From contig JAJQCW010000072.1 of assembly GCA_021202515.1 (NCBI GenBank), forward strand, positions 1 to 40,770: a DNA stretch of 40,770 nt, written 5' to 3'. Below, piece after piece: positions 315 through 4,817 of the stretch; position 1 is the first letter of the stretch; every line of letters begins with the position of its first letter. The stretch comes from Clostridiales bacterium (GTDB lineage: Bacteria; Bacillota; Clostridia; Oscillospirales; Oscillospiraceae). Position numbers and translations under genes: made by a program. Below the pieces are notes generated by a model. The model worked only from the letters and a program-made list of their open reading frames with translations. It was not told where the DNA came from and did no database searches.

Positions 315-830
315 TTATTGGGGTTCTGCGGGGTTCCCGTTCCGTTTCAGCGACACGATACTGTAGATGTGGGCGGCGATGGTCATCAGGTCGAAGGCAA
401 ACGCGGCGTAATTCCAATAGTAGAAATCATAAATCACCCACAGGGCCTGGGTGAAAATGAGGACGTACTTAAACCGGAAGATGTTTTTGAGGTCCAGCGA
501 ACAGGTGTAAACCACCGTGGCCAGGATGGGGAAAAACTCGATGGGCGCAGGGACACCGTTTGCCAGGGTGATGCCCAACTGCAAAACGATGAAAAACACC
601 TTCAGCGGGGTGGTGGCCGCCACCTTGAAAAAAGCCAGGTTCCGGGCGATGCCGACGGCGTTGGAGACCGCGCCCGCGTAGGCCCCCAGCAGCAGATTCG
701 CCGTGGCCAGCAACCCGAATTGCAGACACTGGACCAGCAGAATCTTTGTCTTGTCCTTGATGAAGCCGATGGAGACCATCAGCAGCGAGCCGAGAAAAGC
801 GATAAAGTTGCCGAGCAACAAAAACGTCAT
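315..830 (-). CDS. YgjV-like multi-pass membrane protein
   Basis: A 171-residue hydrophobic protein with about five or six membrane spans. The block LLLGAYAGAVSNAVGIARN near residues 50-68 and the overall size match the bacterial inner-membrane protein YgjV family (Imp-YgjV), whose substrate is unknown to me. I chose the ATG at 828-830 because GGAGGG lies 7 bases upstream. An in-frame ATG at 914 would add 28 residues but has no ribosome binding site and would read through the attenuator hairpin. The gene is alone on its transcript, with its own perfect promoter at 965-993 and a leader of about 127 nt. The structured leader suggests the protein handles a small molecule or ion that the RNA could sense; this is inference. 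Confidence 0.8.
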   Translation of the reverse strand: MTFLLLGNFIAFLGSLLMVSIGFIKDKTKILLVQCLQFGLLATANLLLGAYAGAVSNAVGIARNLAFFKVAATTPLKVFFIVLQLGITLANGVPAPIEFFPILATVVYTCSLDLKNIFRFKYVLIFTQALWVIYDFYYWNYAAFAFDLMTIAAHIYSIVSLKRNGNPAEPQ

Positions 831-958
831 AGTGCGTCCCTCCAAAAAAAAGCTGACACAGTGTTGTGCCAGCTTTTTTGAAGTATCATAGAAACTGACA
901 ACAACGGAGGTCATTGGTGACAGTTTCGACTGAGTGTGGCGCGCCTGCCCAAATGACA
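831..958 (-). promoter_or_regulatory. Attenuator-like 5' leader of the ygjV-like gene
   Basis: The leader RNA can form three competing structures. (1) GAAACUG (plus 921-927) pairs with CAGUUUC (891-897). (2) GUUGUUGUCAGUUU (892-905) can pair with AAGCUGGCACAAC (863-875) through 13 pairs including two G-U and one bulged U. (3) The terminator hairpin at 844-879 uses that same AAGCUGGCACAAC arm. Structures 1 and 2 exclude each other, as do 2 and 3. This is the usual logic of a riboswitch or attenuator: anti-antiterminator, antiterminator, terminator. The upstream part, from about 921 to 958, is small, and I do not recognise it as a known aptamer. Confidence 0.6.
844..879 (-). terminator. Intrinsic terminator directly before the ygjV-like RBS
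   Basis: On the minus strand, AAAAAAGCTGGCACA, a 4-base loop, then TGTGTCAGCTTTTTT form a 15-bp stem with one mismatch, ending in eight T. The next bases are GGAGGG, the ribosome binding site of the ygjV-like gene. Termination here would remove the binding site from the RNA, so the hairpin sits where an on/off switch would be expected. Confidence 0.75.
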
Positions 959-964
959 GGCTGC

Positions 965-993
965 ATTATAACAGGTGGCTACGGCCCTGTCAA
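965..993 (-). promoter_or_regulatory. Perfect consensus promoter TTGACA-17-TATAAT
   Basis: On the minus strand, TTGACA (988-993), a 17-base spacer and TATAAT (965-970) match the sigma-A consensus at every position. The expected start of transcription is near 958. It lies only 17 bases beyond the stop codon of the reductase gene, so the ygjV-like gene has its own transcript. Confidence 0.9.
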
Positions 994-1009: not shown

Positions 1010-3562
1010 TCAGCAGGTAGCGCCGCCCTTGACGGTCTTTTTCAGGATGGCTTCCTTGTCCATGGTGTCGTCCAGCAGCTTGTCATTGACATAGTTGAAG
1101 CCCAGCCGGGTGACGGTATCCGCGAAGCGCTCGCCGGTCAGGCCCTCGTCCCGGAACAGGAGGATGGCCCGCTCCACGACGCCCATGACCTCTTCCTCGG
1201 AGGTGAAGATGCGGGTCAGCGGCTGGCCGTGGGCGACCTTCTTGCCCCAGCGCCCGCCAATGTAAACGCGGTAGCCGTCCTGATAGTCCAGCGCGCCGAA
1301 CAAGCACTTGTCCTTGCAGCGGCCGCAGTTGTTGCACTGGGTCGGGTCGATCTTGATCTTGCCGTCTTCCACTCTCGCCACGCTGATGGGGCAGGCAGCC
1401 TCCACCTGGCACTTCTTGCAGCCCCGGCACTTGGCGTAGTCGATCATCGGCACCCGCTGGCCCACGATGCCCAGGTCGTTCAGGTTGGGCTTGACGCAGT
1501 TGTTGGGGCAGCCGCCCACCGCGATCTTGAACTTGTGGGGCAGGGTCACGCCATGGTAGCCCACATAAAACGCCTCGTGGAGCCGCTCGGACAGACCGAA
1601 GGTGTCGATGAGGCCGTACTGACAGGTGGTGCCCTTGCAGGAGACCACCGGGCGCACCAGTGAGCCGGTGCCGCCGGTCTCCAGGCCGTGGTCGTGGAGG
1701 AAGTCCATCACCGGCTGGAGGTCGGCGTACTTCACGCCCTGAATTTCCAGGGTCAGGCGGGTGGTCATGGTGACCGCGCCGGAGCCGAACCGCTCCGCCG
1801 CCTCCGCGATGGTGCGGTGTTCCTCGGCGGTGATCTTGCCGTTGCGGGTGATGACGCGGACGTTGAACACGTCGGGATACCGCTTATCCTGGAGGCAGCC
1901 CAGGGCCTTCACCCGCTTGATCTCCGCCGCAGGCAGCGCCCCGGTGAACTCCACCTTGACCTCGTTGACAAACAGGCCGCCCTCCAGGGCGCGGGTGTTG
2001 GTGTAACCGAAGGCTTTCAGGCGGTTTTGCAGCAGGTAGCCCCGCTTGCCCTTGGCACAGACCAGCAGCAGCTTCTCGTCCTTGCCGATGCCATCCAGCG
2101 GCCCGTTGACGGCGGGCAGGTTGATCCACTGAGCGCCGGGAATGGTGGGGGCAGGGCTGACGTCCAGGACCTTGTAGCCCTTGGCCTTGCCTGCGGCGTA
2201 CTCGGCGGGGGTGAAGCTCTCGTAAGCGCCGCTGAGCTTGTTCTCCAGGATGTAGCAAGCCTGGACGAAGGGGTGAATGGCGGTGGAGAAGGGAGGCGCG
2301 TAGGCGTAATCCAGCGTGTCGAAGTCCTCCAGCTTCATCCCGGCAGAAATGCCAGTGACGGCGATGTCCACCATCTTGTCCACAGCGCCGGACCCCAGCA
2401 CCTGGATGCCCAGCAGGGCGTGAGTGGCCCGGTCCGCGATGAGCTTGGTGACAAAGGTGGACGCGTCCGGGTAGTAGTGGGCCTTGTCGTCGGTGACGCA
2501 GGTGGCGGTGATGACATCGTACCCCGCCGCCTTCGCCTGGGCCTCAGTGAGGCCGGTGCGTCCGGCGTTCAGGTCGTTTGCCAGCCGCACCACGCCGGTG
2601 CCCAGGCAGCCGCCGTAGGTCAGGCTCTCACCGGTCAGGTTCTTGGCCAGCAGACGGCCCGTCAGGTTGGCGGTGGAGCCCATGGCGGACCACTGGCTGT
2701 TACCGGTCAGGCTGTTGTAGACCTGAGCGCAGTCGCCCACAGCGTAGACGTCCTCCAGGTTGGTTTTCTGCTGCTTGTCCACGACGATGGTGCCGCGGTT
2801 CATCTCAATGCCGGAATCGGCCAGAAAGCCGGTGGCCGGGCGGACGCCGATGGCCAGCACCACCAGGTCTCCCGCAAAGCTGCCAACACTGGTGCGGATG
2901 CCGGTCGCCTTGTCGGTGCCCTGCACCTCCTCCAGCCCCGCGCCGGTGATGATCCGCATCCCCTTGGCCTGGAGCTTACGGCGGATGTAGGCGGCCATTT
3001 CCGCGTCAAACAGGTTGGGCATCACCTGGGAGGCCATGTCCACCACGGTGACGCTGACTCCCTTTGCCATCAGGTTTTCCGCGATCTCCAGGCCGATGAA
3101 GCCGCCGCCCACCACCACGGCGCTATGGCAGTTGTTCTGCTCCACATAGGCCCGCAGGTCGATGGCGTCGTCAGGGCTGCGCATGGTGAACACGCCGGGC
3201 AGCTCCTTCCCCGGCACGTTAGGCACAAAGGGGGCTGCACCGGTGGCGATGACCAGCTTGTCATAGCCCACAGTCTCCCCGTTGGCGAAGGTGACTGTTT
3301 TCTCCGCCCCGTTGACGGAGACCGCCTCCATGCCAGTGCGCACAGCCACGCCGGTGAGACCGGTGAAGCTGGCGGGGGTGTTGACGATCAGTTCCTCACG
3401 GGTCTCGATGTCCCCGCCCACATAGTAGGGCAGACCGCAGCCCGCATAGGAAATGTCCTGGCTTTTGGTGTAGATTGTGACGGTGGCGCTGCGGTCCTGA
3501 CGCATCAGCTTCGCAGCGGTTTTGGTGCCGGCGGCTACGCCGCCAATTACAACAACGTTCAT
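1010..3562 (-). CDS. CoA-disulfide-reductase-like flavoprotein fused to rhodanese, siroheme reductase and ferredoxin domains
   Basis: An 850-residue fusion. Residues 1-445 are an FAD/NAD(P) pyridine-nucleotide disulfide oxidoreductase of the CoA-disulfide reductase/NADH oxidase type, with an FAD loop VVIGGVAAG, a redox Cys42 in SYAGCGLPYYVGG and an FAD site YAVGDCA at 273-279. Residues about 460-545 are a short rhodanese-like domain with active-site loop CAKGKRG (Cys502). Residues about 560-705 are a nitrite/sulfite reductase half-domain with siroheme/4Fe-4S cysteines Cys642, Cys647, Cys685 and Cys689. Residues 712-753 bind two 4Fe-4S clusters (Cys712, 715, 718, 724 and 743, 746, 749, 753). 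The likely role is cytoplasmic sulfur reduction, passing electrons from NAD(P)H through FAD and clusters to siroheme, with sulfane sulfur on Cys502; the exact substrate (sulfite, polysulfide, CoA persulfide) is open. ATG at 3562 has GAGGAG 8 bases upstream; a GTG three codons earlier overlaps that site. The gene is divergent from a LysR regulator. Confidence 0.85.
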   Translation of the reverse strand: MNVVVIGGVAAGTKTAAKLMRQDRSATVTIYTKSQDISYAGCGLPYYVGGDIETREELIVNTPASFTGLTGVAVRTGMEAVSVNGAEKTVTFANGETVGYDKLVIATGAAPFVPNVPGKELPGVFTMRSPDDAIDLRAYVEQNNCHSAVVVGGGFIGLEIAENLMAKGVSVTVVDMASQVMPNLFDAEMAAYIRRKLQAKGMRIITGAGLEEVQGTDKATGIRTSVGSFAGDLVVLAIGVRPATGFLADSGIEMNRGTIVVDKQQKTNLEDVYAVGDCAQVYNSLTGNSQWSAMGSTANLTGRLLAKNLTGESLTYGGCLGTGVVRLANDLNAGRTGLTEAQAKAAGYDVITATCVTDDKAHYYPDASTFVTKLIADRATHALLGIQVLGSGAVDKMVDIAVTGISAGMKLEDFDTLDYAYAPPFSTAIHPFVQACYILENKLSGAYESFTPAEYAAGKAKGYKVLDVSPAPTIPGAQWINLPAVNGPLDGIGKDEKLLLVCAKGKRGYLLQNRLKAFGYTNTRALEGGLFVNEVKVEFTGALPAAEIKRVKALGCLQDKRYPDVFNVRVITRNGKITAEEHRTIAEAAERFGSGAVTMTTRLTLEIQGVKYADLQPVMDFLHDHGLETGGTGSLVRPVVSCKGTTCQYGLIDTFGLSERLHEAFYVGYHGVTLPHKFKIAVGGCPNNCVKPNLNDLGIVGQRVPMIDYAKCRGCKKCQVEAACPISVARVEDGKIKIDPTQCNNCGRCKDKCLFGALDYQDGYRVYIGGRWGKKVAHGQPLTRIFTSEEEVMGVVERAILLFRDEGLTGERFADTVTRLGFNYVNDKLLDDTMDKEAILKKTVKGGATC

Positions 3563-3618
3563 AGGGCACACTCCTCTGGCGCCGCCGTATTTGGAAAACG
3601 GCGCTCTTTCTCACGTTG

Positions 3619-4788: not shown

Positions 4789-4817
4789 TTGACATCTTTT
4801 TACCAGTTTGTTATACT
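4789..4817 (+). promoter_or_regulatory. Strong promoter TTGACA-17-TATACT
   Basis: TTGACA (4789-4794), a 17-base spacer and TATACT (4812-4817). The expected start is about 4824. No open frame with a ribosome binding site follows before 5135, so it drives either a noncoding RNA or a leader of about 310 nt for the coiled-coil gene. Confidence 0.8.

Follow-up and report, generated by a model that had tools for sequence, protein, structure and literature searches.

The sequence analysed here (the window) is a stretch of 40,770 nt, contig JAJQCW010000072.1 of a Clostridiales bacterium of the Oscillospiraceae (assembly GCA_021202515.1). Close to its start, on the minus strand, lies a gene whose product matches the Imp-YgjV family (PF10688) at 72.8 bits, over the curated cut-off of 23.5, and this is the only PF10688 match in the source genome. 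A Foldseek search with the YgjV protein returned no PDB chain at E below 1, a profile search of PDB sequences gave a single weak row (4qnc, E 0.81) that was not used as evidence, and a search of a plasmid collection with the same protein gave no match. The next gene upstream (1010-3571, minus strand) encodes an unusual 853-aa fusion of CoA-disulfide-reductase-like, rhodanese-like and nitrite/sulfite reductase parts, the last of these with ferredoxin-type iron-sulfur motifs.

Between the two genes lies a minus-strand promoter with TTGACA at 993-988, a 17-nt spacer and TATAAT at 970-965. A preliminary description of the locus had called this promoter perfect, and it is indeed the sole exact consensus match in the window; the one-mismatch pattern was matched twice, against a mean of 0.05 in shuffled sequences. 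A second, near-consensus promoter (TTGACA-17-TATACT, one mismatch) was noted on the plus strand at 4789-4817. The distance from TATAAT to the ygjV ATG at 830 is 134 nt and the leader between promoter and ygjV is about 127 nt long, the transcription start being presumed from the position of the -10 box. The three helices proposed for this leader, an anti-antiterminator (hairpin H), an antiterminator and an intrinsic terminator, are all possible within it and were all recovered by sequence and folding at their original places (Table 1). The part of H formed by 927-921 with 897-891 is present in the minimum-energy fold, the antiterminator has 13 pairs with one bulged base (901), and the ribosome binding site follows directly 3' of the terminator U-tract, which touches it as had been claimed. 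An additional helix, P1, which was absent from the preliminary description, begins at the presumed 5' end of the RNA, as placed from the -10 box.

Table 1. Features of the ygjV locus (window positions; pairings are given 5' strand with 3' strand).
Feature	Position	Strand	Basis
Promoter, TTGACA-17-TATAAT, TG before -10	965..993	-	both hexamers invariant in 8 aligned leaders
Helix P1, 957-952 with 915-910	910..957	-	6 pairs, all cells (100%) paired; two-sided change in 2 pairs
Possible helix P3, 932-930 with 923-921	921..932	-	paired in 95.8% of cells; covariation absent
Hairpin H (anti-antiterminator), 927-921 and 919-918 with 900-899 and 897-891	891..927	-	crosses P1; pairing 98.6%
Antiterminator, 905-902 and 900-892 with 863-875	863..905	-	fold; 97.2% of 72 cells paired in the nine-pair core
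Intrinsic terminator, 879-866 with 859-846, U-tract 851-844	844..879	-	sequence, fold, conservation
Ribosome binding site, GGAGGG	838..843	-	sequence
ygjV-like gene, 171 aa, Imp-YgjV family	315..830	-	PF10688, E 3.7e-20

Taken as a single sequence, leader and terminator together folded better than all of 200 shuffles (z -4.07). The fold of the leader without its terminator was unremarkable (P 0.07), the antiterminator duplex reached P 0.016 against shuffles, and 37 of 2000 shuffled leaders had an antiterminator strand that was as good and likewise sequestered. The single-sequence evidence is therefore modest; the window alone is no proof of a switch, and it is the comparative evidence that carries the case.

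A protein search across 148 relatives gave a YgjV match in 24 genomes, ten of which belong to the genus, counting that of the window. Duplicate contigs and loci (L008/L027/L067; L009/L026/L035/L066; L030-L034 with L003-L007) were recognised and each genome was counted once. The leader was present in eight genomes, whose YgjV proteins share 66% identity or more across the matched stretches, and was lacking in two others of the genus with more distant proteins (G003, 31% identical; G012, 22%). An RNA model built from the eight leaders with H as its structure (R1) located the leader in exactly the 8 of 32 genus genomes that hold a close YgjV orthologue, with E 7e-21 or better and in one place each. 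At E 0.05 the same search gave 12 of the 32 genomes, namely the eight leaders and four weak rows of 18 to 21 bits, and among 400 genomes of the family R1 gave 11 at E 0.01, of which three belong to the eight leaders and the other eight are weak, none exceeding 23.5 bits. A second model with P1 and P3 as structure (R2) gave three among 394 genomes of the order, of which two were again from the eight leaders and the third was L082, at 30.6 bits. No convincing further copy of the leader was thus found in the family and order samples, which contain some of the eight; remote relatives could remain, because the stricter filters applied to these large samples lose weak matches.

The 13 weak rows were counted as chance. 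Nine were viewed with sequence and ORFs (L069, L073-L078 and L080, with at most four plus-strand ORFs each, and L082), and none of these nine showed a ygjV-like ORF; L070 and L079 were viewed as alignments only, and L071 and L072 as table rows only. The L082 match (1501-1582, plus strand) lies antisense inside an ORF which we take to be ribonuclease Y and was set aside as a recurring false positive of both RNA models; L073, L075 and L080 have a stretch similar to that of L082, as judged by eye. At 43 loci of distant YgjV genes R1 returned three rows, the best at E 0.53 (10.6 bits). A crude scan placed terminator-like sites within 300 nt upstream of the gene at 15 of these 43 loci, and such sites may belong to the preceding genes. 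As a separate observation, locus L039 of genus g149 (YgjV gene 40% identical, match at 1501, plus strand) carries, 160 nt upstream of the match, a GC-rich hairpin and then TTTT, situated after a promoter-like site and before ygjV, and there AACCGCAAAC follows a small hairpin and faintly resembles the leader core; the RNA model gives no match at this site.

The gene upstream of the leader is the fused CoA-disulfide reductase in the window, G001 and G027, with the same upstream end in G015 and G029. A PfkB kinase gene lies upstream in G026, which has a 614-aa ORF further upstream in common with G031, and G022 has a divergent gene for a sugar-type binding protein, with a triosephosphate-isomerase-like gene downstream. 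The upstream contexts are thus of three different kinds, and the leader goes with ygjV. In G031 (L035) the leader occupies 1647-1775 and a 323-aa ORF (1963-2934) with no Pfam match lies between it and ygjV. The ygjV genes of G026 (L027) and G031 give matches in two frames, for which reason both genomes were left out of the fourfold-site comparison and of the protein alignment; these copies could be disrupted or wrongly assembled. The ygjV gene of G029 is cut by the contig end and entered the fourfold-site comparison only as far as it is present.

The eight leaders (window, G001, G015, G022, G026, G027, G029 and G031) were aligned (alignment A1); they represent about four lineages, and the changes described here may be few events. 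P1 can pair in all eight, two of its U-A pairs being replaced by C-G in G026 and G031. Another helix, P2, is confined to three leaders (G022, G026 and G031) and has one compensatory pair. For P1, P2 and H combined, 99.3% of 138 cells were paired, with five two-sided pairs, against 18-49% when the partner strand was slid. In shuffled alignments the pairing percentage of these helices was reached by 0 of 500 and the number of two-sided pairs by 9 of 500, and the number of pair types by 452 of 500, neither of these last two measures being extreme. Unconstrained simulation on the tree matched the pairing of P1 and H in none of 3000 runs when the full rate was used and in 0.07% with the matched rate, and at the matched rate the helices taken singly gave P 0.035 (P1) and P 0.018 (H). 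Covariation in this sample of eight thus argues for P1 and H as a conserved structured domain.

It had been proposed that covarying pairs should be sought in all three of the original helices. In H, two of nine pairs were changed on both sides and two more by G-U, whereas neither the antiterminator nor the terminator had a two-sided change. The homologous leaders therefore retain more than a terminator stem, the anti-antiterminator being compensated, but the antiterminator varies on one side only. The terminator was paired in 94.6% of 112 cells, and where one arm has two partners a lack of two-sided change may be anticipated. Where the 3' arm of H has changed, it can still pair with H as well as with the arm of the terminator, column 117 in two leaders excepted. 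Pairing of the antiterminator, and with it a platform of mutually exclusive helices, is possible in all eight leaders. In simulation the antiterminator gave P 0.0007 at the full rate and 0.28 at the matched rate, and its duplex did not outdo shuffles in G027, G029, G026 and G031 (P 0.08 to 0.39). The antiterminator is thus the weak link, and chance could be the source of its pairing. Identity of the leader was higher than that of fourfold sites for distant pairs (G001/G022, 0.85 vs 0.69), but not clearly so for some close ones (window/G027, 0.79 vs 0.81).

Most of the 3' strand of P2 (CAGGC or CAGGT) is kept in the five leaders in which its 5' strand is missing (A1 columns 33-66). A GCCTG just before P1 (window 943-961) could pair with this strand, although it would be placed at the presumed transcription start or ahead of it. 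A reading of the GCCTG/CAGGC repeat as a DNA operator was considered by eye only.

The 3' strand of P1 sits between the two arms of H, so that P1 crosses the nine lower pairs of H and the two may form a pseudoknot. In the window, G015, G001 and G022, folding showed that H can extend into the 3' strand of P1 and then excludes P1. When the leaders were folded to the end of P1 only, P1 was in the best structure of all eight, whereas P2 with P3 belonged to this nascent optimum solely in the three leaders possessing P2. At the stage where the terminator has yet to emerge, the window, G015, G001 and G022 have H at or close to their optimal fold, and in G027, G029, G026 and G031 P1 is favoured over H. 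The terminator form was the most stable in all eight leaders, and forcing the antiterminator into the fold cost 6 to 15 kcal/mol relative to the optimum in each, so that antitermination would need a kinetic or ligand-driven route.

We consider that the leader may be a cis-acting, riboswitch-type transcription attenuator of ygjV, a reading to which we assign a probability of about one half. Its direct support comes from the sequence, its conservation, the covariation of P1 and H, and the tight link to ygjV; switching, a ligand and the direction of control could be envisaged as follows. The 5' part would fold first, with P1 closed around the conserved core, and 900-892 would on emergence have two candidate partners, the core or the 5' arm of the terminator. 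Pairing with the core (hairpin H) would leave the terminator free to form and the gene off, and pairing with the terminator arm (the antiterminator) would turn the gene on. A pseudoknot could hold P1 together with the lower part of H that crosses it, and a small molecule bound in the fold of P1, core and H could keep 900-892 from antiterminating. An off-switch of this kind would silence a transporter gene whenever its substrate, or something made from that substrate, is abundant. We infer that an off-switch by a ligand-stabilised P1/core/H fold is the most likely direction; nearly as likely is an on-switch, in which the ligand would fix the P1 domain and free 900-892. Of the three-state orphan riboswitch originally suggested, the conserved and unrecognised ygjV-linked leader, the covarying H and the conserved terminator stand, as does the ability of the antiterminator to pair in all eight leaders, though with changes on one side only.

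The same anatomy would also serve a trans-acting RNA-binding protein (or small RNA) that binds the core and chooses between H with the terminator and the antiterminator. PyrR- and LicT-type regulators decide between terminator and antiterminator in this way, the conserved single-stranded letters of the core could be a protein site, and the very narrow distribution of the leader would fit a local regulator. However, no regulator gene was seen beside the leader in the contexts looked at, where annotation is partial, and P1 closes a domain beyond the needs of a simple protein hairpin, which makes such a regulator unlikely in our view. Slightly better placed, and still improbable, is a structured leader without regulation, in which the terminator simply keeps ygjV expression down under a strong promoter, with H and P1 serving to protect the RNA or to insulate its folding. 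The stability of the terminator form in every leader and the statistical weakness of the antiterminator would be expected of it, but compensatory changes in two crossing helices exceed what a passive leader needs, and an antiterminator is still possible in all eight.

Far less probable is a small RNA acting elsewhere, made from leader and terminator, with ygjV produced by read-through. The RNA would have its own strong promoter and terminator and a size of about 115-130 nt; however, it was met solely beside close ygjV orthologues, in 8 of 32 genus genomes, and no copy lacking the gene was convincing. Ribosome-mediated attenuation through a leader peptide, the least credible of the readings considered, could draw on an in-frame ATG in all eight leaders and on three valine codons in a row in three of them. 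Against it, no clear ribosome site precedes the ATG and no stop precedes the terminator, the peptides differ between lineages, and the variable positions of the core are spread evenly over the codon positions (6, 6 and 7, by hand count from A1). A leader-peptide attenuator was accordingly rejected, since no small ORF is conserved together with a ribosome site, a stop and a run of codons.

Returning to the riboswitch-type attenuator, a more specific and tentative form of it, to which we give clearly less than even odds, would make the leader an undescribed, genus-restricted riboswitch class in which the P1/H pseudoknot senses the YgjV substrate or a cofactor derived from it, probably vitamin-like or nucleoside-like, as a PnuC-like model would suggest. 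If true, identifying the ligand would give a lead to a first substrate of this family, for which the literature offered no settled one: by title none of the papers naming YgjV concerns its function, and the passages seen in two of them give only a regulation result and a mutation. With a short RNA open to probing by vitamins, nucleosides and sugars, the YgjV cargo would become a directly testable question. In the PnuC group, according to the passages seen of one study, transporter cargo was predicted from the identity of the riboswitch (PMC7749635).

The preliminary description had recognised no known riboswitch in the leader, and we likewise obtained no match at the Rfam gathering score, either in the whole window or in five of the seven other leaders. 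A lenient Rfam search of 780-1010 gave eight rows, and a lenient search of the five leaders together (L005, L006, L007, L027 and L035; those of G015 and G001 lay outside the scan) gave six, all of them below gathering. The best sub-threshold row in the window by E-value was Thr_leader (RF00506; 22.6 bits, E 0.027, gathering score 55), which is an attenuator with a terminator, as the leader here would be; but the leader here has no leader peptide. The preQ1-I, SAM-II and fluoride riboswitches are pseudoknot riboswitches. They are like the ygjV leader in that it may have an H-type 5' pseudoknot competing with a downstream element, but their conserved letters differ from those of the leader, and none is among the Rfam rows obtained. 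A literature search, with subscription journals and supplements outside its reach, returned nothing combining ygjV with a riboswitch and nothing with the accession PF10688. A further parallel, by description, is the NAD+-II (pnuC motif) riboswitch, which the passages seen of two papers present as rare, restricted to one genus, located before a PnuC transporter gene and endowed with a proposed pseudoknot (PMC7749635, PMC8632094). As described there, its pseudoknot involves the ribosome binding site, whereas the platform of the ygjV leader would be an intrinsic terminator, and it precedes a PnuC gene, whereas the leader here precedes a PF10688 gene. Set beside these systems, the ygjV leader may be regarded as a new candidate of a rare, orphan attenuator type.
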